The position numbers and the translations under genes were made by a program. Below, in pieces: positions 22,787 through 33,568 of a stretch of DNA of 64,000 nucleotides. Origin of the DNA: Actinomycetes bacterium (GTDB lineage Bacteria; Actinomycetota; Actinomycetes; Nanopelagicales; Nanopelagicaceae); the NCBI GenBank assembly GCA_947383695.1, contig OX376642.1, forward strand, positions 62,001-126,000, given 5' to 3'. Positions within the stretch are counted from its first letter, which is position 1; the number at the start of each line of letters is the position of its first letter. The notes below the pieces were generated by a model. The model was not told where the DNA came from, ran no database searches, and was given only the letters and a program-made list of their open reading frames with translations.

Positions 22787-22824
22787 AACTGTTCAATGAA
22801 CAGTTGGTGATCACTCATGAGTGA
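22787..22824 (+). promoter_or_regulatory. Two perfect palindromes over the luxR-type gene start
   Basis: AACTGTTCA (22787-22795) and TGAACAGTT (22797-22805) form a perfect 9-bp inverted repeat around a single A. Six bases further, TCACTCATGAGTGA (22811-22824) is a 14-bp perfect palindrome centred on the ATG at 22817. The first looks like an operator for a dimeric regulator, most simply the LuxR-type product itself. The second could hide the start codon in a hairpin. No Shine-Dalgarno sequence is visible. Confidence 0.6.
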
Positions 22825-23509
22825 GATTAGAAAGTTCATTGAGTGGTTAAGTTTTCATCCGTCATCGGAAGATATTGCCCGTGCGCTCGCAACTGAATAC
22901 CTCAGCGAATTCTCAGTACAGGGCATTCGTTTTGGACGTTTAAATAGTGATGATTCCATTGTTGTTTTGGGCCAATTTGGATACCCAGATGCAGATCTCT
23001 ATCGCGACCGAGTAATTCCAAGCAATGAATGGCGCGCAGTCAATGCACCAGACATTGTTTTAATTAGTAATGCAACACAAGGTGAATTCACACCTAATGA
23101 AACTATGTATGTTTCATGTTTACGAGATCGCGGTGTAATTCAAGGATATTTAATTGTTGAATTTAAGAACCCAGTCAGGGATTCAGAGAAAGCTCGAACC
23201 GCTGAGGCGATTGAAGATATGTGTGTCCCAATCTCGCTGTATATGTCCTTCCAAAACCGCGGCGCTCATGCCGATTCCCATGTGGCGATTTTGAATGACT
23301 CCCGGGACTCTGGGGCTGGCCAGCTTTCAGCTCGCCAACTGTCGATTCTGCGGGGCATGGTCGAGGGCAAGACCAACCACGAGCTAGCCACCGAGATGGG
23401 CTTTTCCGTCTCGACCATCCGCCACGAGACCATGAGGATCTACCAGGCGTTAGCGGTCAGCGACCGCAAAGAAGCGGCCAAAAAGGCGCTCACGCTCAGC
23501 CTCATATAA
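22817..23509 (+). CDS. LuxR-type helix-turn-helix regulator
   Basis: A 230-residue regulator. The C-terminal 65 residues are a LuxR/GerE DNA-binding domain (SARQLSILRGMVEGKTNHEL, then FSVSTIRHETMRIY). The N-terminal roughly 150 residues look GAF-like (IRFGRLNSDDSIVVLGQFG and a later DRGVIQGYLIVEFK), suggesting a small ligand or redox sensor. There is no receiver-type phosphorylation motif. The DNA-binding part has much more GC-rich codons than the sensor half. The gene is flanked by palindromes and by a membrane sigma-factor gene downstream, which it may control. Confidence 0.85.
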   Translation: MSEIRKFIEWLSFHPSSEDIARALATEYLSEFSVQGIRFGRLNSDDSIVVLGQFGYPDADLYRDRVIPSNEWRAVNAPDIVLISNATQGEFTPNETMYVSCLRDRGVIQGYLIVEFKNPVRDSEKARTAEAIEDMCVPISLYMSFQNRGAHADSHVAILNDSRDSGAGQLSARQLSILRGMVEGKTNHELATEMGFSVSTIRHETMRIYQALAVSDRKEAAKKALTLSLI

Positions 23510-23719
23510 AAGTTATATGGGCTCACCGCGACTCGCGGACACGCTCAAACCCTCAATAACGGCTTTACCCTTGCCTACCCCATAGACTAGAGACCTGATT
23601 CCGGCAGGCTTGTTTCTCGCTGCCATTCGGCGAAAGCCCTCCATGCACTTCCCCCACCTACGCTCAACCACCGCATCCAGGAAAACTTTCTAAAGAAAGT
23701 TTCCAAAAGGGCACAACAT
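23510..23719. other. Non-coding stretch with an inverted repeat at 23680-23704
   Basis: No supported gene between the LuxR-type gene and the sigma-factor gene. Near its end, GGAAAACTTTC (23680-23690) and GAAAGTTTCC (23695-23704) form an inverted repeat of 10 bp arms with one bulged A and loop TAAA. There is no T-run behind it, so an operator is more likely than a terminator. Confidence 0.5.
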
Positions 23720-23748
23720 TTGGCCCCCAGCGGTGTCTTAACTATTAG
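23720..23748 (+). promoter_or_regulatory. Candidate promoter of the sigma-factor gene
   Basis: TTGGCC (23720-23725), a 17-bp spacer and TATTAG (23743-23748) form a weak sigma70-type promoter 46 bp upstream of the chosen start codon. It lies just after the 23680-23704 inverted repeat, where a bound regulator would affect it. Confidence 0.35.
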
Positions 23749-23794
23749 AGGGCAAGACGTTGCCTTCATTATGAAACTCGCGGGAGTTACTCAA

Positions 23795-25237
23795 ATGGCA
23801 CTATTGAAGTCGAAAGCGGCGAAAGCAGCTGCAGCGACCGATGCCGCCCGCATTTTGAGCGCAAATCCCGCCGACGCTCTTATTGATACACCTGCTCAAG
23901 GCTCTTCAGCTGACTGGACTATCGCTCAGCTAAGCGCGATCTACACAGAGCACCGCACACAGCTCGTCTCACAGGCACGCCGCATCACCCGCGATGAGGC
24001 AGAGGCCAACGAGGTCGTCCAGGAAGCATTCTTGAAGTTCATGCTTGCAGCCCCAGATCTAGATACAGCAGATCGTGCAATTGCATACCTTCGTACATCA
24101 GTAAACAACCTTGCGTTGAACGTAATCCGCGCACGTGGTGCACGTCCTAACTTGGTAGCAATCGATGCTGACACAACCCAGGAGCGTCTAAACGAGATCG
24201 CATCTGAAAACCACATCGATCTTGATACAACTATCTCTGCTGCAGAAGATGCCGCGATTATCCGCGAAGCACTTGCTCGCCTGACCTCTGACCAGCGCAC
24301 AGCGCTTGTTATGTGGGAAATGGAAGGCCGCACAACAGAAGAAATCGCAACTGCGCTTAACACAAGCCCAGCAAATGTTCGCCACATTTTGGTTCGCGCT
24401 CGCAAGTCAATGGTCCGCGTTCTTGAGGACTGGATCGTTGATGAAAAGACTGGCCTAACAGCACTTAACGCGCTTTCAACAACTTACAAGAAGTCAGTAG
24501 AGCTAGCCCAGAAATCATCAAAGGCTGCGCTTTCACTTCTACTAGTTATTACCGCTTTCCTTGGCTTCAACTCAATGACTGGAAATGAAAGCCCAGTACT
24601 GCCAGTTGTTGCCCAGGTTGAAACTGAGACATCACCTATGTCTCCTGTTGCACCTTCAGCATCAGCTACAGCTACCGCTAAGGCTCAAGCTGCAGCAACA
24701 GCTGCTGCAAAGAAGGCTCAGCAAGCAGCGATCAACGCAAAGATCGCAGCGCTTTCATTCTTTGGTCTTGATAACAACGGAATCCCAACAAGCTTCACAG
24801 TTACCGATGCAGATGGTTCATTCGGTAAGGGCCGTGTTACAAAGGGAATTTCAACCGTTGGCACATCAGGAATCTTGATCAACAACCAGTTCATCACAGG
24901 CTCAGTCGGTCCAAATGTTCTTATCGATCAGCTGATCACAATCGATGGAACTGGAACTAATTACAGCCTGAACAACATCAACGTTGGCTTTGCTGGGAAC
25001 TGGAACTCAGTTGAAATCAACTCAGTTGATACATCTATCGAGCGCCTGGCTAACGGTCAGCACTTGATCACAGCAACAGCAAACATCGGCTACTTGAAGC
25101 CATCTACTTTTGCGATCCCAACCGGAGCACGTGGTTACGACCTAACCGATGCTCCAGCGACGATCACAACTCGAGTTCTTCTGAACTCAGGCAAGACCAC
25201 CATCCTCGCGCAAGCGGTGCAGGTGACAAACAAATAA
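23795..25237 (+). CDS. ECF-like sigma factor fused to a transmembrane helix and an extracytoplasmic domain
   Basis: A 480-residue protein. Sigma region 2 covers about residues 45-115 (EANEVVQEAFLKFML, then AIAYLRTSVNNLALN) and region 4 about 150-212 (LTSDQRTALVMWEMEGRTTE, then SPANVRHILVRARKS). A hydrophobic helix follows at about 244-260 (AALSLLLVITAFLGF), then a Pro/Ser/Ala-rich linker, an Ala/Lys-rich helix (292-320) and a beta-rich domain of about 160 residues. Topology should place the sigma part inside and the C-terminus outside. GGGAG lies eight bases before this ATG; TTG 23720 would place promoter-like DNA inside the gene. The next gene is the large surface protein. Confidence 0.82.
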   Translation: MALLKSKAAKAAAATDAARILSANPADALIDTPAQGSSADWTIAQLSAIYTEHRTQLVSQARRITRDEAEANEVVQEAFLKFMLAAPDLDTADRAIAYLRTSVNNLALNVIRARGARPNLVAIDADTTQERLNEIASENHIDLDTTISAAEDAAIIREALARLTSDQRTALVMWEMEGRTTEEIATALNTSPANVRHILVRARKSMVRVLEDWIVDEKTGLTALNALSTTYKKSVELAQKSSKAALSLLLVITAFLGFNSMTGNESPVLPVVAQVETETSPMSPVAPSASATATAKAQAAATAAAKKAQQAAINAKIAALSFFGLDNNGIPTSFTVTDADGSFGKGRVTKGISTVGTSGILINNQFITGSVGPNVLIDQLITIDGTGTNYSLNNINVGFAGNWNSVEINSVDTSIERLANGQHLITATANIGYLKPSTFAIPTGARGYDLTDAPATITTRVLLNSGKTTILAQAVQVTNK

Positions 25238-25240
25238 ATA

Positions 25241-25378
25241 GGTTTCCTCGCCGCGTCCGGATACACGGTGGGGAATTTGGTGAATCAGCACGTGCGATTC
25301 ATCGAATCGGGTGAGTTTTTAACTTACCCAAAGCCGACCGGGGGAAATTCCCTCGATCGACTAATCGAAAGGAAACAA
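25241..25378 (+). promoter_or_regulatory. Structured 5' leader of the surface-protein gene
   Basis: GGGAATTT (25271-25278) can pair with AAATTCCC (25345-25352), enclosing two hairpins: GGTGAATC/GATTCATC (25279-25303, loop containing GCACGTGC) and GGGTGAGTT/AACTTACCC (25309-25329). A fourth hairpin, TCGAT/ATCGA (25353-25368), lies right before the ribosome-binding site AAAGGA. Such a leader could stabilise the mRNA or gate translation. It matches no riboswitch class I recognise. Confidence 0.55.
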
Positions 25379-27889
25379 ATGTCTACAAAGACAACTTTCA
25401 AGCGCATCGCGCTTGTAGCAGTTGCTGCGTTGGGCTTTGGTGTTCTTACTTCAGTTGCGCCTGCAAGCGCAGCAGCAAGTGCCGCCACTGGCTTCACGAT
25501 TGGAACATCTTCACCAGCTCGCGTTGGTGTAGTATCAACAACACCAATCACTGTTGCACACGCAGCAGGAACAGCAGGAACAGCAGACACAATCACAATC
25601 TCAGCGAAGATCACATCTGCACCAGATACTTCAAAGGTGATCACAGATACAAACACATCTTCACTTGGTCTTACATTTGACACACCAACAGGTGGTCTGA
25701 CTGTAGCTAACACATATGCAATCGGTGGTGCAAGCGGAGTTATTACTCAGCCAAACACAACTACAGCAAAAACTTCTTCAGCTACATGGTTGAAGTTTGC
25801 AGCTGACGTTGCAGGTACATACACGATTCTTGTTTCAGCTGGTTCTTCTTACGCAGCTGGTGCAGTATCAACAAGCTACACAATTACAACAGCTGGCGCT
25901 CCAGCAACGATGGCATTGTCATCAGTAATTGGTTCAGTTGTAACAGGTGGAACTGCAGGTCAGATTCTTGCAATGACACTTAAGGATGCAGCTGGAAACG
26001 CAACAGTTCTCTCAGATAACGAAGCTGTTAACTTGACTACAGCAGACACAACACTTGCTATCCATGCTCCAGTAGCAGGTGGCGCAAACGCAGTGTTCGC
26101 TAAGGGTGAAGACACATTGGGTACATACTATGCAAAGGTAATTGAGACAGGAACTGTAGCGGCTGGAACAAGCCCAATTACATTTACTGCTTCAGGCCTA
26201 CTTTCACCAACAATCACAAGCAACATTTCAGTAACAAAGGTAGTTGCTACTACAAATGCAGCAGATGTTGTTGCTTGTACTACAGCCGCTAACTGTGTAA
26301 CAACAGGAACTGATACAACAACTGCGATTGCTCGCACTGTTGGCGGATCAGTTGGCGTAACTGTAACTCCATTCACAGCTCAGGCAACTGCACGTAACTT
26401 CCTAGTGATTGTTACAAACAACGCGACTGGCTTGACATACAACTCTTCATACACAGTAGCTGCTGATGGAACTACATCAACATTTACTGTTCCAGCACCA
26501 ACTGCTGCGGGAACTGTTGTAGTGGACTTTGGTCAAGTTGTTGGAACATTCACATACGGAATCCCAGCAGCTTCAGCAATCGCAGTGACCCCAGCTTCAG
26601 TTCTATCTGCAACTGGTGGATCAACAACAATCGATGTGAAGGCAACAAACCAATACGGTACTGCAGCACAGTACGTACCAGTGAGCGTAAGCGTTGCTGG
26701 TCGTAACACAGTTGCAACAACTGCTCTAGGTGTGACAGATGCAAATGGTTTCATTTCATACACACTTAAGGATGCAGGAACTGTTGGAACAACTGACACA
26801 GTGACATTCTCGTCAACTGCTGCAGGTGTTGCTAACAAGACAGCAACCATCACATACGGAACAGTTACAGTTGCAAAGGTTTCTTTCACAGGACCTAACA
26901 CAACATCTGGCGTTGCATCAACAACGACAACAGTGAGCCCAATCCGTGCTAACCAGACTCCAGAAGCTTCTACAGCTTCAGCGTCTGTTGTAGTTACAGA
27001 TGCCGCTGGAAACCTTCTAGCAGGAGTTCCAGTTGTATTCACGGTAAGCGGAACGACAGCAGCAATTACTTCAAACGCTGTAACTGTTTACACTTCAGCA
27101 GCTGGTGTTGCAGCTTCAACTGTATTTGCATGGGTAGCTGGTACATACACAGTTACAGCAACTGCAGGTGGAGTAACAGGAACTGGTTCATACACATTCG
27201 CTAACTCAACACCAGCAGACGCTCGCGTTCTTTCAGCTAAGGTTGATGGCGGAATCATCACAGCAACTGTTGTTGATCGTTTCGGTAACCCAGTGTCTGG
27301 TGTTGATGTTTACGCATCACGTACATCAGGTACAGGATACTTCGGTGCTGGTGTAAGCAAGACAACAACAAAGACAGGCACTGATGGAACTGCTGAGTTC
27401 ACACTCATCGGAAATGCTGATGTCAAGGTTTCAACACTTGATTACAACGCAGTTGCTGGTACAAACGCACCAGGACAGACTTGCGCACTTGCAGGTAACT
27501 TCGACTGTGCAGTTGGCGCAACAGCTGCTGTGGCATTCACAGCAACTACAGCTGGAACAACAACAGCAGCAGCAAAGAACTACGGTTCATCATTTGCTCC
27601 AGCTGGTGTTTCAACAGTTACAGTAGCTGTAAGCAACAGCGCAGCAGCAGATGCAGCAACAGCAGCAGCAGATGCAGCAGCAGAAGCAACTGATGCAGCA
27701 AATGCAGCAACTGATGCAGCTAACGCTGCAGCAGAGGCAGCAGATGCAGCAACAGCTGCAGCACAAGATGCTGCAGATGCAGTAGCTGCTCTATCTACTC
27801 AGGTTTCAGAGATGGTGAATGCTCTAAAGAAGCAGATCACAGCTCTAACAAACCTAGTAATCAAGATCCAGAAGAAGGTAAAGGCATAA
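25379..27889 (+). CDS. Large secreted Ig-like surface protein with alanine-rich coiled-coil tail
   Basis: An 836-residue protein with a clear signal peptide (KRIALVAVAALGFGVLTSVA, cleavage after APASA near residue 31). The body is Thr/Ala/Val-rich beta-sandwich sequence with Big_1/invasin-like repeats (TIDVKATNQYGTAAQYVPVS, LLAGVPVVFTVSG, TATVVDRFGNPVSGVDVYAS). The last roughly 85 residues are an alanine-rich helix with a DAA repeat, ending in a heptad-patterned Leu/Lys segment. AAAGGAAAC precedes this ATG; an earlier frame opening at 25268 lies in leader RNA. Strongly biased codons (AAG, AAC, GCA, ACA) suggest high expression, as for an S-layer-like or adhesive protein. No LPXTG is seen. Confidence 0.82.
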   Translation: MSTKTTFKRIALVAVAALGFGVLTSVAPASAAASAATGFTIGTSSPARVGVVSTTPITVAHAAGTAGTADTITISAKITSAPDTSKVITDTNTSSLGLTFDTPTGGLTVANTYAIGGASGVITQPNTTTAKTSSATWLKFAADVAGTYTILVSAGSSYAAGAVSTSYTITTAGAPATMALSSVIGSVVTGGTAGQILAMTLKDAAGNATVLSDNEAVNLTTADTTLAIHAPVAGGANAVFAKGEDTLGTYYAKVIETGTVAAGTSPITFTASGLLSPTITSNISVTKVVATTNAADVVACTTAANCVTTGTDTTTAIARTVGGSVGVTVTPFTAQATARNFLVIVTNNATGLTYNSSYTVAADGTTSTFTVPAPTAAGTVVVDFGQVVGTFTYGIPAASAIAVTPASVLSATGGSTTIDVKATNQYGTAAQYVPVSVSVAGRNTVATTALGVTDANGFISYTLKDAGTVGTTDTVTFSSTAAGVANKTATITYGTVTVAKVSFTGPNTTSGVASTTTTVSPIRANQTPEASTASASVVVTDAAGNLLAGVPVVFTVSGTTAAITSNAVTVYTSAAGVAASTVFAWVAGTYTVTATAGGVTGTGSYTFANSTPADARVLSAKVDGGIITATVVDRFGNPVSGVDVYASRTSGTGYFGAGVSKTTTKTGTDGTAEFTLIGNADVKVSTLDYNAVAGTNAPGQTCALAGNFDCAVGATAAVAFTATTAGTTTAAAKNYGSSFAPAGVSTVTVAVSNSAAADAATAAADAAAEATDAANAATDAANAAAEAADAATAAAQDAADAVAALSTQVSEMVNALKKQITALTNLVIKIQKKVKA

Positions 27890-27962: not shown

Positions 27963-28042
27963 CTTCCCTGGGGAACTTGCTTGGCAGAGGGCACACTGTT
28001 ACTACGCACCTGGTTCACAGGAATCTGCGGTGTAATTGGTTT

Positions 28043-29395
28043 ATGACCCAGGCGACCCGCATTTATAAGCACTCGGCAGCAGGTACGGACTGGGCGGCGC
28101 TGATGTTGGGCGCTGGGTTGGGCCTGACTCTGGCTCTGCAGGCGACGACTCTGCGCAGCGGGGATTTCAAGGATTTCTATTCAGTTGTTGTGACAGTTAG
28201 TCGCTTGGCAGCTTTGGTGGGTACATACCTGTCGATTGTTGGAATCTTTTTGGTGGCACGTATTCCTGTTGTGGAACGCGGAGTTGGCCATGATCGATTG
28301 GTGACCTGGCATCGAAAGCTGGGGCCTTGGTCTTTGTATTTAATCGGTGCGCATGTGTTTTTGATTGTGTTGGGTTTTGCGGGGCAAGATCAGATTCCTT
28401 TGTATAAAGAGATGTGGCAGTTCTTAACAACATATGACTGGATGTGGTTTGCGCTCGCTGGTTTTGTGTTGATGGTTCAAGCGGGTGTGACCTCATATAA
28501 GAAGGCGCGCGCCAAGATGAGTTATGAGACTTGGTGGTTGGTTCACATCCTGACCTATGCGGCGGTTGCTGCATCATTTATGCACCAGATTGTTAATGGT
28601 TCGATGTTTATTGATCATCCATTAAATAAGGCGTACTGGATTACTTTGTATATTTCGATGGCTTTGGCGATTGGGTATTGGAGATTCTGGGTTCCGATTT
28701 GGCGATCACTGAAAGTAAATTTGCGAGTTGAAAAAGTTGTGGTCGAAGGACCCGGAGTTGTTTCGGTAATTATGAAGGGTCGCAATTTAGATCGATTGGC
28801 TGCGCAAGGTGGGCAGTTCTTTGGGTGGAGATTTATAGCCCGTGGGCATGCGTTGATGTCGCATCCATATTCTTTGTCGGCTGCGCCGACCAAGAATCAT
28901 TTGCGAATTACCGTGAAGGATTTAGGAGATCACTCAAGATCGTTGGCGTTCTTAAAGCCGGGGACGCGAGTCTTTGTTGAAGGTCCTTATGGGGCATTTA
29001 CTGCAGGGCGTTCTACTTCACCGCATGTGGTGTTGGTGGGTGGTGGAGTTGGAATTACTCCGGTGCGAGCGTTGATGGATGAGTTCAATGGTGGAGCTCA
29101 GATAGATGTGATTTTTAGGGCTTCTCGCGAAGAGGATTTAGTTCTTAAGGGCGAGATGGATTATTTGGCTAACAACAGCGGTGGGTCGATACGGATTCAT
29201 TACTTAGTAGGGCCGCGAAAGAACCATCCGATGGATGCGCGATCATTGAAGGCGTTAGTGCCGACCTTTGCCGATAGTGATATCTATATTTGCGGGCCAG
29301 AGCCGTTGGTGAGTGCGGTGCGTAAGGCTGCGGAGGATCTAGGTGTGCCAAAGAACCGTTTCCATGATGAGGCTTTTGCATTTCATAGCGAATAA
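28043..29395 (+). CDS. Ferric-reductase-like transmembrane flavocytochrome/ferredoxin reductase
   Basis: About 450 residues: a six-helix ferric-reductase-like membrane domain with histidines spaced for haem (WHRKLGPWSLYLIGAH and WWLVHILTYAAVAASFMHQ), then an FAD-binding domain (HPYSLSAAP near residue 265) and an NAD(P)-binding domain (LVGGGVGITPVRALM, later YICGPEPLV). It should carry electrons from NAD(P)H across the membrane. I start at the ATG of 28043, where TGTAAT ends six bases upstream; the frame opens further upstream without a ribosome-binding site. The next two genes, an FMN-binding protein and ApbE, provide its likely extracytoplasmic acceptor. Confidence 0.88.
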   Translation: MTQATRIYKHSAAGTDWAALMLGAGLGLTLALQATTLRSGDFKDFYSVVVTVSRLAALVGTYLSIVGIFLVARIPVVERGVGHDRLVTWHRKLGPWSLYLIGAHVFLIVLGFAGQDQIPLYKEMWQFLTTYDWMWFALAGFVLMVQAGVTSYKKARAKMSYETWWLVHILTYAAVAASFMHQIVNGSMFIDHPLNKAYWITLYISMALAIGYWRFWVPIWRSLKVNLRVEKVVVEGPGVVSVIMKGRNLDRLAAQGGQFFGWRFIARGHALMSHPYSLSAAPTKNHLRITVKDLGDHSRSLAFLKPGTRVFVEGPYGAFTAGRSTSPHVVLVGGGVGITPVRALMDEFNGGAQIDVIFRASREEDLVLKGEMDYLANNSGGSIRIHYLVGPRKNHPMDARSLKALVPTFADSDIYICGPEPLVSAVRKAAEDLGVPKNRFHDEAFAFHSE

Positions 29396-29528
29396 TTAGC
29401 CGTAGATACTCTGTGGTGGGATTGCGGGCGTTCACAGAAATCTTTCAGGTTGGTGGGCTTTGATAAGCCTGTTGAACCATTCGAGGGGTTAAACGCTAGA
29501 AACAAAGAGCACGAAGTGAGGGTATGAG

Positions 29529-30125
29529 ATGAAGCGGGCGTTGCTTATCGCAGGAGGCACTGTGGGGGGCCTCGGTGCGGTTTTGGCGATTACTCCGCCT
29601 CAGTTGGGTTCGACCAGTGCGATTAACATCGCCGGGGCTCCAGTGATTGGGACAGGAACAACCGCGGTTGCGTCTGCTTCATCATCATCTTCCAACACTG
29701 CTGTTGCGACAACAAAGGCGAGTGCTGCTGCTACAAAGGCTGCGAAGCCGGTTGCGACGAAGAAGGCAAGCAGCGGGAATTCAGGAAGTAATACTGCAAC
29801 GGCTGCGACGACAACTGCGCCAGCAACTCAGGCACCTGCGTCACCGGCTGCGATCAATGGAACATTTACAGGTCCATCTGTTTTTGTGAACTACGGAAAT
29901 GTTCAAGTGAAAATTACAGTTGTGAATGGTCGCATTACAGATGCGGTTGCAGTTGTTGCTCCAAGTGGTCGAAATGATCGCTATACAAATATGGCGGTGC
30001 CGATTTTGAAGCAGCAGACATTGAAGGCGCAGAGTGCAAATATTCAAGGTGCATCTGGTGCCTCATACACAAGTTACGGTTGGTTTACATCGCTTCAGGG
30101 AGCGCTCGCTCAAGCTGGTTTGTAG
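29529..30125 (+). CDS. Secreted/anchored FMN-binding domain protein
   Basis: A 198-residue protein with an N-terminal hydrophobic anchor or signal (LLIAGGTVGGLGAVLAI), a Ser/Thr/Ala/Lys-rich linker (residues 45-105) and a C-terminal FMN-binding domain. The segment SGASYTS near residue 180 matches the flavinylation motif (S/T)GAxxT, where ApbE links FMN through a phosphoester to the threonine. It lies between the flavocytochrome and apbE, which fits a system passing electrons outward to a covalently bound FMN. GAGGG lies ahead of the ATG. Confidence 0.87.
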   Translation: MKRALLIAGGTVGGLGAVLAITPPQLGSTSAINIAGAPVIGTGTTAVASASSSSSNTAVATTKASAAATKAAKPVATKKASSGNSGSNTATAATTTAPATQAPASPAAINGTFTGPSVFVNYGNVQVKITVVNGRITDAVAVVAPSGRNDRYTNMAVPILKQQTLKAQSANIQGASGASYTSYGWFTSLQGALAQAGL

Positions 30126-30147
30126 TTCGCGCAGATAGGGTTTGGGT

Positions 30148-30909
30148 ATGAATCATCTGCGTCGACAGTTTCCTGTGTGGGGAACAATTGTGGATGTGGA
30201 TTGTTATTCGCAATCTGTCGGTGGTGCGGATTTAGATATCGCAATGGAATCAGTGATTGCGTTTTGTGAAGTTGTTGATCAAGATTTTTCGACCTATAAA
30301 GATGGGTCGTGGGTGACGCGGTTGAGGCGTGGTGCGGTTGCGATTGAGGATTGTCCTGATGATGTGCGCGCTGTGTGGGATTTGTGTTTGCGTGCGAAGG
30401 ATTTGAGTGATGGGGCTTTTGATCCGTGGGCAGTTAAGGGCGGGTTTGATCCATCGGGGTTGGTTAAGGGTTGGGCTGCCGATGCGGCATCAAATATTTT
30501 GGTTGCGGCAGGTGTTCAGCACTGTCAGGTAAATGCTGCAGGGGATTTAGCGTTGCGTGGTGGATGGTTCGATTCAGTGGCTGGGGTTGTAAAGCCTTGG
30601 TCGATTGGTGTTGTTAATCCTGATGATCGCGCGGAGATTGTGAAGGTGTATGAAATTACCGATGGTGCGATTGCGACATCTGGAACTTATGAACGCGGTG
30701 CACATATTCATGATCCATTGAATGGATTGATTGCGATTGGGGCGAAGAGTGCGACCGTTGTTGGGGCTGAGGGCTGGCTGTGTGATGCGATGGCAACAGC
30801 GGTCATGGTTGGCGGTCAGGATTCAGCAAAATGGTTTGGCCAGCCTGAATTGCAGGGATATCAGGTATTTGCAGTGAATCGACATGAACAAAGTGCGTGG
30901 GAGATTTAG
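30148..30909 (+). CDS. apbE: FAD:protein FMN transferase (ApbE family)
   Basis: A 253-residue ApbE-like enzyme that transfers FMN from FAD to a threonine of target proteins. Seen are the FDPSGLVKGWAAD segment (near residue 110), NAAGDLALRGG (near 130) and the C-terminal ATSGTYERGAHIHDP (near 180), with conserved metal- and FAD-binding residues. I take the ATG at 30148, since TAGGGT ends six bases before it; a TTG six bases earlier is less likely. No lipobox or signal peptide is visible, so the enzyme may act in the cytoplasm or leave by another route. The preceding gene encodes its apparent substrate. Confidence 0.9.
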   Translation: MNHLRRQFPVWGTIVDVDCYSQSVGGADLDIAMESVIAFCEVVDQDFSTYKDGSWVTRLRRGAVAIEDCPDDVRAVWDLCLRAKDLSDGAFDPWAVKGGFDPSGLVKGWAADAASNILVAAGVQHCQVNAAGDLALRGGWFDSVAGVVKPWSIGVVNPDDRAEIVKVYEITDGAIATSGTYERGAHIHDPLNGLIAIGAKSATVVGAEGWLCDAMATAVMVGGQDSAKWFGQPELQGYQVFAVNRHEQSAWEI

Positions 30910-30910
30910 G

Positions 30911-33568
30911 ATGCTCACTATGTCTTCGACCAATCGCGCAAGAAAAGCTACAACCATTGTTCTTGCTCTGGTTGTCGGATTTGTTTCATTGGGATTTTCG
31001 CCGGCGTATGCGCTGGATGAGCGAGTTATCGATGTTGTTGAGGTGACCTGGAATGGTGCACCTGCATTGCGCGGCGATGCAAAGGTTGTTGCTGGGGTTA
31101 TTGATACCGAAGTAAATGCTGACTGGAAAAAGTACACAACGATGGTGGGCGATAACGGAAGTCGCACAGTGTCATTTAAGAGCGGCAAGATTTTGGATAC
31201 ACCGATTTCATTGGTGTCGAAGATGGCGTGTACTGGATATGCGGCCAGTGATTTTATGAATTCAATTCGTCCCGAGGCATATCGCCGTTTGGGAATTAGC
31301 GATTATTCAAATCGGTACTTAGTTGTTGTCTCGCCTCGTGCGGGATGTGTGTGGTCGGGTCGCGCGCAAATGGGTGGGCCGAAAAGTAAAAGCGGAACGC
31401 TGATTTTGCACGATAGCGAATCCTCTTTTGTTATTGCACACGAGCTTGGCCATACCTTTGGTTTAGGTCACTCAAACTTCTTGCGCTGCGATGACAAGGC
31501 ATCTGATGGTGCGTGGGGCACAAATTGCAAAGGTGTTGAATACGGCGGAACTATTGATGTGATGGGCAATGTTGATACAACATCACCGCTGAGCACCTAT
31601 CACCAGTGGCGAATGGGGTTGCTCGAGGATTCACAAATCAAGCAGGTGTGGCAATCAGAGGTAGTGAATTTAGCTCCGAGTGATTTCGCAAATGGTGTGA
31701 AGGCGATTTTTATTCGTGATGGAAAGGCTGGGTATTGGGTTGAGTACCGTCGCAAGACTGATGGTGCTGTCTATAAGCCAGGTCTTGCGATTTATCGTTT
31801 AGATCCCCCACCGGTATCTGCGATTGTTTCTCCCAACCCTGAAGATGGTGCAGCTTCCGAGTTCCCATCAGTGCTGGGTACTGATTTCTGGATGCTGAAT
31901 CTTGATAACTACACCTACAACACTTCCTCATCCTTGAGCGGATCGATGACGGGGCTGACTGCAAAGACTTACTCCGGCAATGTTTCTTTTAGTGCGGTTG
32001 CCTCTGAAACAGGTGCTGTTGTAACAATTACAAAGAAGGCGGATACAACTCCTCCGCCAGTTCCTAATGTGCTTCCTGTTGATCAATGGCGTTCACCGAG
32101 CATGGTGATTCTTGGTCCAGGCGGTGAAGATGCAGATACTGCAATCGTTGGTTTCGAAGGCCAGATCGATGGCAAAGTTGAAACGTTAAAGGCATCAGAT
32201 GTTGAAGGTTGGATGCCAACCTATTTATCTCCCTTTGTTGCGCCCAAGACTTTTTACTTACGTGATTTGCCTGAAGGTAGTTTTAACTTTGCGATGCGTG
32301 CGATAGATATCGTGGGCAACAAGAGTGATTGGTCAACTCCGCAAAAGGTTGTTATTGATCGTGCGCATCCAGTTGTCACCAATGATTTTGTATTAACTGG
32401 TGTTGCTGCTGGCGAGTTATCGCTGCAGTGGAAGGGTGCAACTGATGCGGGCAGCGGAATCTGCCAAGCAAATGTTGTTGATGAAGATGGCTGGATTTTG
32501 GCGACTAGTTCTGTAAAGAATGCGCCCGTTCTTAAGGTTGCAAGCGGTACAAAGTTAGTTGGAACCGCTCAGATTTTTGATTGCATTGGCAATGGATTAA
32601 CAGGGGATATCAGTATTTCAAATACCGTGGTTGCTGCCGATAAGAGTTCAAAGACAGGTAAGTGGAGCGCTGCTGGCGCTGCTTATGGTGCTGGTGCGAT
32701 TAAGTGCGTTGGTAAGTGCACAGCGTCGTTAACTGTTTCTGGCAAGAATGATGTTTTGGTGGGCACAGGTGCGGCAACGATTGCAGTAGGAAATAAGACT
32801 GTGGCAACTATCGCCGATAGCAAGGTTACCAAGCTGCGCATTGGTGCAACCGTTGATGTGGGAGCCAGCAAGAAGGTTGTTCGTGTCAGTGGATCTAACT
32901 TTGTATTAATTGGATTGAGTTCAGTAACGACAACCTTAGGAACTTTAAAAGAGGTTGATCGCGCACCTGCGATTTCTGATCCATCATTGGTTGATTCCAA
33001 GCAAGTTGCATTAGCCAAGTTAGGTTTCCGCGCCGATGATTTCAGCCAGGAGTGGACGATTTTGCCGATGGCAAATGGAACAACCTTGCTCGATCCATCG
33101 CTGGATCTATGTAATGGAAAGTTTGACTCTGAAAAGGATCGCGTTGAGCGTCGTCAGGTAACGGCGACAAAGGTTGGATCAACATTTTCATTCTTATCAA
33201 CTGAGGTTGTGAAGTACTCATCGGCAGCTGCGGCAAGTGCTGCGCAGAAAGAGTTGGTAAAGGTTTTGGCGCAGTGCCAGACCGATAAGGGGTACAAGGA
33301 TTCAACTGGAACTTTGGTTCCTTATGATTTTAAGAAGTTAACCACGATCCCAACGGGCGTTGTTTCTGAAGGCAATCGCGTCTTTGTTCATACAGTGATC
33401 GATACAGATATTCGAGCACGTACATTGCTTGGTTTCTACCAATTCAATGGCGATACCTTTACAGGGCTTTATGTGATGAACGCTGAAGGCTTTAGCGATG
33501 CACAGGTAGCAAAGTGGCTCAAGGTCGCGGCGACAATGGGTCAGCGTTTACAAGGAAAAGCTATTTAA
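30911..33568 (+). CDS. Secreted zinc metalloprotease (gametolysin/M11-like)
   Basis: An 885-residue secreted protein. The signal peptide (ATTIVLALVVGFVSLGFSPA, then YALD) is followed by a metalloprotease domain with the zinc motif HELGHTFGLGH near residue 177 and a downstream DVMGN that may form the Met-turn. The fit is best to reprolysin/M11-like metzincins. After about residue 370 come fibronectin-like and other beta-rich regions with no family I recognise, and the last 150 residues form a separate domain. GGGAG lies eight bases before this ATG, one base after the apbE stop. It overlaps the convergent aldo/keto reductase gene by 4 bp. Confidence 0.83.
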   Translation: MLTMSSTNRARKATTIVLALVVGFVSLGFSPAYALDERVIDVVEVTWNGAPALRGDAKVVAGVIDTEVNADWKKYTTMVGDNGSRTVSFKSGKILDTPISLVSKMACTGYAASDFMNSIRPEAYRRLGISDYSNRYLVVVSPRAGCVWSGRAQMGGPKSKSGTLILHDSESSFVIAHELGHTFGLGHSNFLRCDDKASDGAWGTNCKGVEYGGTIDVMGNVDTTSPLSTYHQWRMGLLEDSQIKQVWQSEVVNLAPSDFANGVKAIFIRDGKAGYWVEYRRKTDGAVYKPGLAIYRLDPPPVSAIVSPNPEDGAASEFPSVLGTDFWMLNLDNYTYNTSSSLSGSMTGLTAKTYSGNVSFSAVASETGAVVTITKKADTTPPPVPNVLPVDQWRSPSMVILGPGGEDADTAIVGFEGQIDGKVETLKASDVEGWMPTYLSPFVAPKTFYLRDLPEGSFNFAMRAIDIVGNKSDWSTPQKVVIDRAHPVVTNDFVLTGVAAGELSLQWKGATDAGSGICQANVVDEDGWILATSSVKNAPVLKVASGTKLVGTAQIFDCIGNGLTGDISISNTVVAADKSSKTGKWSAAGAAYGAGAIKCVGKCTASLTVSGKNDVLVGTGAATIAVGNKTVATIADSKVTKLRIGATVDVGASKKVVRVSGSNFVLIGLSSVTTTLGTLKEVDRAPAISDPSLVDSKQVALAKLGFRADDFSQEWTILPMANGTTLLDPSLDLCNGKFDSEKDRVERRQVTATKVGSTFSFLSTEVVKYSSAAAASAAQKELVKVLAQCQTDKGYKDSTGTLVPYDFKKLTTIPTGVVSEGNRVFVHTVIDTDIRARTLLGFYQFNGDTFTGLYVMNAEGFSDAQVAKWLKVAATMGQRLQGKAI

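Follow-up and report, generated by a model that had tools for sequence, protein, structure and literature searches.

The gene at positions 23795 to 25237 of the window (the whole 64,000-nucleotide stretch of DNA that was analysed) is predicted to encode a sigma factor with a membrane extension, and we consider it rather probable that this is a one-component, membrane-held ECF sigma factor that is released by regulated proteolysis and dedicated to its own surface-protein operon. The sequence evidence for this reading consists of the architecture of the protein, its conservation, the partner gene, the structure of the RNA leader, a promoter present in a single copy and the co-segregation of promoter and sigma classes. 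The operon would consist of promoter, sigma gene, structured RNA leader and the gene for a secreted surface protein (Table 1). Conservation throughout the family, the surface partner, the leader, the promoter and the way in which sigma classes have exchanged their outer domains say more about function than does the topology of the protein.

Table 1. Features of the sigma factor operon in the window, with the evidence for each
Feature	Position	Strand	Evidence
ECF-like promoter of sigma gene: CAACATTT (23714-23721), 11 nt, GTGTCTT (23733-23739)	23714..23739	+	genome search; kept in class A relatives
Putative ribosome-binding site GCGGGAG of sigma gene	23780..23786	+	sequence; kept in near relatives
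Membrane-tethered ECF sigma factor (predicted), 480 aa	23795..25237	+	translation, Pfam, 63 distinct relatives
Sigma region 2, residues 49-115	23939..24139	+	Pfam PF04542 (Sigma70_r2), E 6.6e-12
Sigma region 4, residues 155-206	24257..24412	+	Pfam PF08281 (Sigma70_r4_2), E 2.8e-13
Basic juxtamembrane segment, residues 216-243, DEKTGLTALNALSTTYKKSVELAQKSSK	24440..24523	+	strong conservation among relatives
Predicted single transmembrane helix, residues 244-262	24524..24580	+	hydropathy and flanking charge, 63 relatives
Variable Pro/Ser/Ala linker with Ala/Lys-rich helix, residues 263-317	24581..24745	+	
All-beta domain, residues 318-480, predicted extracytoplasmic	24746..25234	+	AlphaFold pLDDT 92.4
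RNA leader of surface-protein gene, through its ATG	25240..25381	+	alignment, covariation, folding; no Rfam match
Hairpin P1 with conserved CCGGA loop	25245..25274	+	10/11 pairs changed on both sides
Hairpin P2 with bulged A, ACGU loop	25277..25305	+	8/12 pairs changed on both sides
Variable hairpin P3	25309..25329	+	leader comparison
Hairpin P4, just 5' of ribosome-binding site	25335..25359	+	7/9 pairs changed on both sides
Ribosome-binding site GAAAGGAAA of surface-protein gene	25367..25375	+	near-invariant in 48 leaders
Secreted surface protein, 836 aa: signal peptide, Big_1 Ig-like domains, acidic Ala-rich C-terminal coiled coil	25379..27889	+	Pfam PF02369

Translation of the window gave a frame of 480 aa from the ATG at 23795 to the stop at 25237, and both the position and the description of this frame in the sequence-only reading were accurate. 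The TTG (23720) from which a longer frame could start falls within the conserved promoter. The Pfam region 3 model stayed below cut-off and TIGR02937 was above its cut-off, and the protein thus has the composition of an ECF (group 4) sigma factor, with sigma regions 2 and 4 and without regions 1 and 3; the Foldseek matches were AlgU/SigH/SigE-like. Pfam found nothing C-terminal of region 4 and no recognised anti-sigma domain in the cytoplasmic part. All parts had been placed in one polypeptide, and nearly every relative has a single open frame in which sigma part, helix, linker and beta domain follow each other, with no frameshift that would separate the C-terminal part.

The most hydrophobic 19-mer of the protein, and its sole strongly hydrophobic stretch, was found at residues 244-262 (AALSLLLVITAFLGFNSMT), and among the 63 relatives the best 19-mer had a KD mean of 1.92 and a minimum of 1.61. 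The mean net charge in the same 63 proteins was +3.6 in the 15 residues before the helix and -0.7 in the 15 residues after it. Given that the segment before the predicted helix is basic and the segment after it acidic to neutral, an N-in/C-out orientation is likely by the positive-inside rule, and the proposed topology with the sigma part inside and the outer domain outside is accordingly likely as judged from hydropathy and charge, membrane insertion being a prediction. Structural modelling returned the parts that had been read from the sequence, the AlphaFold model (with relatives) consisting of folded sigma helices, a disordered linker, a helix at residues 293-313 and the beta domain, which begins near residue 318. 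The juxtamembrane segment and the helix (GLTALDALSTTYKKAAELAQKSSKVALSLLLVVTAFLGFNSMTG in many relatives) were strongly conserved and the linker varied freely.

When modelled alone by AlphaFold, the beta domain had ten strands and no helix (pLDDT 92.4, pTM 0.88). The sequence-only reading had not recognised this outer domain, and profile, sequence and structure searches gave no convincing match: comparison of 63 outer domains with Pfam gave scattered weak matches and no family above chance, comparison of the sequence with the PDB gave no match and Foldseek gave none at E<=0.001. The NTF2/cystatin-like or LpqH-like fold matches that were obtained were weak and partial (Z<=5), the best of them being an NTF2/cystatin-like match (Z 5.0, rmsd 3.6 over 82 residues) without a Pfam counterpart, and for this reason no fold is claimed for the domain. 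The fold search of the PDB with the full model returned sigma factors only. In three relatives (L128, L129 and L138) a short helical tail was found in place of the beta domain and, on the evidence of these sequences, the beta fold itself is therefore not essential to the scheme.

In total 63 distinct full-length relatives of the sigma factor were collected, all from the same freshwater actinobacterial family (Nanopelagicaceae/Ca. Planktophila) and including those of Ca. Planktophila versatilis, Ca. P. lacus and the freshwater isolates IMCC19121, IMCC25003 and IMCC26103. Strong matches to the sigma gene were found in about 55 of the 151 family genomes sampled, including 17/17 single-contig genomes (the source genome is itself a single contig of 1.43 Mb), and in an order-wide sample 95 of 296 genomes were positive, all of them within the same family. 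The outer domain was not found in the 395 other Actinomycetota genomes sampled. By these searches the membrane extension of this ECF sigma factor is of a kind unmatched in the libraries used, and the protein, as far as sampled, belongs to one family only. A divergent subgroup of sigma factors (L128 in G109, L129 in G030, L138 in G165, L130 in G210, L133 and L134) is spread across several genera, which suggests, from the sequences compared, that the whole locus has been exchanged between genera, and in L128, L129 and L138 the helical tail is accompanied by different surface-protein ends. In another relative (L043, 1573-8160) the sigma gene, leader and surface gene are tandemly duplicated on one contig.

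The sequence-only reading was correct in stating that ECF groups with C-terminal membrane extensions are known, examples being ECF48, ECF52, ECF53 and IutY (PMC8999054, PMC5826349). The ECF52 protein SCO4117 of Streptomyces coelicolor is autoregulated when truncated, and positive autoregulation and release by a protease have been proposed for it (PMC5826349). The window protein resembles it in being an actinobacterial ECF sigma factor whose single polypeptide also comprises a C-terminal transmembrane helix, a linker containing prolines and an outer domain, and the C-terminal transmembrane region of ECF52 is predicted here too, as a single hydrophobic segment in the 63 relatives. In contrast, the zinc finger (pfam13490) that ECF52 has between sigma region 4 and the membrane helix is absent here, the window protein having no Pfam match beyond the sigma domains and no cysteine (0 in 480 residues), and the proline-rich extension with a carbohydrate-binding module corresponds to a short variable P/S/A linker, the module being present in 0/63 outer domains (Pfam). 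Further differences from ECF52 are the beta domain without a known family, the fixed surface-protein partner and the RNA leader. Since the zinc finger and the carbohydrate module both fail, the window sigma factor is, by its predicted architecture, ECF52-like but not filed in ECF52.

IutY belongs to a Gram-negative host, and the membrane-bound part fused to it is a FecR-like anti-sigma part of the type used in iron cell-surface signalling. In this protein (ECF243, Pseudomonas putida) the sigma part is inside and is fused to a membrane-spanning C-terminal regulatory part, from which it is released by Prc and RseP (PMC8999054). The likeness lies in this fusion of a sigma factor to a membrane-spanning C-terminal part, whereas no FecR or anti-sigma Pfam match was obtained for the window protein or the 63 outer domains. 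The actinobacterial groups ECF48 and ECF53 have C-terminal membrane extensions and are expected to be activated by proteolysis (PMC8999054), but their descriptions include a ZAS-type zinc-finger part, along with one or two transmembrane helices, and there is no zinc finger here. The SnoaL (NTF2-fold) extension of the ECF41/ECF56 type had no Pfam match here, the NTF2-like match (Z 5.0) being weak and partial. No report on this locus was found in the open literature searched.

The class A promoter pattern had one match in the genome by exact search, and a longer version of the pattern, with up to 3 mismatches allowed, still had only one. Class B relatives carry a corresponding but different element (ACAT/ACAA ... 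TTCGTAG or GCGTAG), and the class of the promoter matched the class of the sigma regions in 57/57 classifiable loci (28 class A and 29 class B/B2). A class B sigma part combined with a window-like outer domain was found in L043 (two copies), L044, L045, L046 and L083. Sigma regions 2 and 4 of these exchanged loci were at 83-95% to the class B locus L026 and at 42-58% to the window, while their outer domains were at 66-70% to the window type (versus 42-48%) and the P1-P2 part of their leaders at 84-93% to the window type (versus 76-83%). The exchanged loci thus point to recombination that cut between the sigma part and the outer domain, the promoter travelling with the sigma part and leader P1-P2 with the outer domain. 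Given that the promoter class tracked the sigma class even after exchange of the outer domain, the comparison supports autoregulation and suggests that the sigma factor autoregulates one operon, although mere physical adjacency could be an alternative source of the co-segregation. Because outer domains have been exchanged between the sigma classes, promoter specificity is also directly testable. Just 5' of the promoter of class B sigma genes (e.g. L026 and L071) a strongly conserved direct repeat, TGTCCGTTTTGTCC, was observed, possibly an operator; class A loci, that of the window among them, lack it.

The absence of an adjacent anti-sigma gene, pointed out earlier, was evident from the neighbours, a LuxR-type regulator upstream and a secreted protein downstream. 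A same-strand gene for a secreted protein was located 131-200 nt 3' of the sigma gene in 50/50 testable loci (those whose sequence extends 240 nt or more beyond the sigma gene), and the genes farther out varied, with polysaccharide genes being common. Within groups of surface proteins the identity was about 80% in the first 32 residues, about 66% in the last 80 and 30-35% in the middle, so by these alignments the predicted partner is a hypervariable surface protein between conserved ends. Given how firmly the outer domain is linked to the surface protein, the state of the coat would be the first candidate signal for this domain. The idea that the Ala/Lys-rich linker helix might pair with the surface protein at its acidic Ala-rich tail was dropped, because the basic helix is not conserved beyond near relatives.

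The same linkage could mean that the outer domain has a structural role, e.g. in anchoring the surface protein or assisting its assembly, with the sigma part gauging the amount of attached surface protein and thus responding to product feedback and not to external stress. We regard this as a rather unlikely alternative. It would account for the surface gene being the invariant neighbour, for the joint movement of outer domain and leader P1-P2 in the exchanged loci, apart from sigma part and promoter, and for the five loci L128, L129, L138, L090 and L093, in which unusual outer domains occur together with unusual C-terminal ends of the surface protein. However, phylogenetic linkage can yield the same pattern, and when joint evolution of outer domain and surface protein was tested, the C-terminal tails of the surface proteins in the exchanged loci showed no clear segregation, being at 71-77% to the window type versus 64-71%, a slight difference.

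The leader between the two genes was analysed in 48 loci with an alignment made by sequence only and not fitted to structure. The three hairpins (P1, P2 and P4) had 97.1% of cells paired and compensatory changes in 25/32 pairs; 0/500 shuffles matched the observed values and slid controls were 34-51% paired. The folding z of the window leader was -5.2. None of the 4227 Rfam covariance models matched at 25240-25381 up to E 1, and five leaders from relatives likewise had no match up to E 0.1. A c-di-AMP (ydaO) riboswitch, guessed from the GGTGGGGAATTTGGTGAATC motif, was dropped as Rfam gave no such match. From covariation and folding the leader is a strongly supported structured RNA element without an Rfam entry. 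In most relatives a UUUCC at the 5' end of the leader is complementary to GGAAA in the ribosome-binding site; at least 5 Watson-Crick pairs were formed in 77% as compared to 12% in shuffled controls, with no covariation for this pairing, both sides being nearly invariant. The minimum-energy fold of the window leader uses the UUUCC/GGAAA pairing and, given this fold and the complementarity, the leader is a possible gate of translation.

A covariance model of the leader found one copy in its own genome, only before the surface gene, and matched 59 of the 151 family genomes, nearly the same set as the sigma gene; both were present in 17/17 single-contig family genomes sampled. The mismatches between the two sets that were examined were largely contig ends or second leader copies before other surface genes and, since these second copies precede other surface genes, the leader belongs to the surface gene. 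This placement, in the own genome and in the second copies of relatives, together with the lack of a match to any known riboswitch family, would also fit an ordinary mRNA-stabilising or processing element of an abundant secreted protein, in an operon whose sigma factor answers general envelope stress, the co-transcription being one of convenience. We judge this explanation improbable: a general stress regulon is difficult to reconcile with the fact that every single-contig genome of the sample has the sigma gene together with the leader and with the lack of a further promoter copy in the genome.

In the favoured reading, a membrane-held sigma factor dedicated to its own operon, the sigma domains would be cytoplasmic, and the beta domain would face outward and may there monitor the cell surface, possibly the product of its own operon or damage to that product. 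At rest the sigma factor would be kept at the membrane and is assumed to be inactive, a state to which the basic, conserved segment next to the membrane may contribute. A signal would lead to cleavage outside and then within the membrane, by which the sigma domain would be freed to transcribe its own promoter and so to raise the output of both sigma factor and surface protein, and the leader RNA would set the yield of surface protein after transcription, e.g. by protection or cleavage of the mRNA or by gating of the ribosome-binding site. The N-in/C-out orientation predicted for the hydrophobic helix in all 63 relatives is shared by RseA and other known substrates of site-2 proteases, and one Peptidase_M50/RseP-type (site-2-protease) homologue was found in the genome.

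Release may be dispensable if an uncleaved sigma factor can bring RNA polymerase to the membrane in the manner of ToxR/CadC-type regulators, so that transcription of the operon would be coupled to sites of insertion and secretion and its activity tuned by conformational change. The juxtamembrane and transmembrane segment, which outside the sigma regions ranks among the best conserved parts, and the freely varying linker fit such a rigid coupling as well as they fit a cleavage site, and no protease gene of a known type was found in the immediate neighbourhood of the sigma gene in the window. Nevertheless transcription without cleavage appears quite unlikely, given the site-2-protease homologue in the genome and given that tested membrane-bound ECF fusions are released proteolytically (IutY, PMC8999054).

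In some relatives the locus had a further component. In L135 (=L051), L154 (=L057), L133 and L134 a second surface gene was found a few kb away in inverted orientation, with a tyrosine recombinase gene (Phage_integrase) between the two surface genes, in L134 directly beside one of them. The identity of the two surface-gene copies has a sharp onset within the leader, at a short inverted repeat, and spans the signal peptide, while the middles differ. In the place of P3 some relatives have a 15-nt inverted repeat (e.g. CTCATGACTTATGAG in L135), and the leader repeat was TCTCATGGTTCATGAGA-like in L133 and CTCATTGCTAATGAG in L134. In L135 and L154 each leader has one copy of the site, the two being in opposite orientation. 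Given an inverted second gene, a recombinase and a repeat in each of them, these four loci (L135/L051, L154/L057, L133 and L134) are, by their sequence anatomy, probable two-gene DNA inversion switches. The window has one leader in its genome, no CTCATNNCNTATGAG site and no recombinase among the adjacent ORFs and, since it lacks the leader insert and the second copy, no switch is claimed for it. Many other leaders carry an insert without a nearby recombinase; among unselected loci, a nearby recombinase was present in 3/15 with a leader insert and 0/22 without one (p 0.06, not significant alone), where an insert means at least 55 nt between P2 and P4, counted by hand, and a threshold of 75 nt classed none as carrying one.

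S-layer genes are switched by site-specific recombination in Campylobacter fetus. A phase-variable surface protein switched by site-specific recombination is also known in C. difficile, CwpV (PMC2784873). The relatives resemble these systems in that their two surface genes are inverted, have conserved starts, are separated by a tyrosine recombinase gene and carry a short inverted repeat in the 5' leader at the onset of their identity, but the putative switch, known from sequence anatomy, would place the alternative genes behind the gene for a membrane-tethered sigma factor. A wider scheme is conceivable in which the operon is a control module for the surface coat, the tethered sigma factor reading the coat outside and driving its own operon only, and in which some lineages feed an inversion switch with a recombination site embedded in the leader; we put this forward tentatively, as a possibility that falls somewhat short of being likely. 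If true, a cell could change its main surface protein while sensor, promoter and leader stay as they are. Few lake bacteria are as numerous as Ca. Planktophila and its relatives, which have very small genomes with few regulators. A conserved operon that links a tethered sigma factor to a hypervariable surface protein offers a handle on the control of what phages and grazers meet.

The surroundings of the operon were also examined. The LuxR-type regulator of the window (22817-23509) is located directly 5' of the sigma gene, and a LuxR-type gene family was present at most 2.5 kb upstream in 9 of 48 loci of relatives. On the other side, at 27977-30909, a ferric-reductase-like membrane protein, an FMN-binding-domain protein (weak match) and an ApbE flavin transferase are encoded in a row, a possible extracellular flavin/electron-transfer set, and ferric-reductase-like and FMN-binding-domain genes were also located 3' of the surface gene in L043, L055, L056 and L075. 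This row is followed at 30884-33568 by the gene for a secreted protein of 894 aa with weak M12/M43-like metalloprotease matches below cut-off (Pfam).
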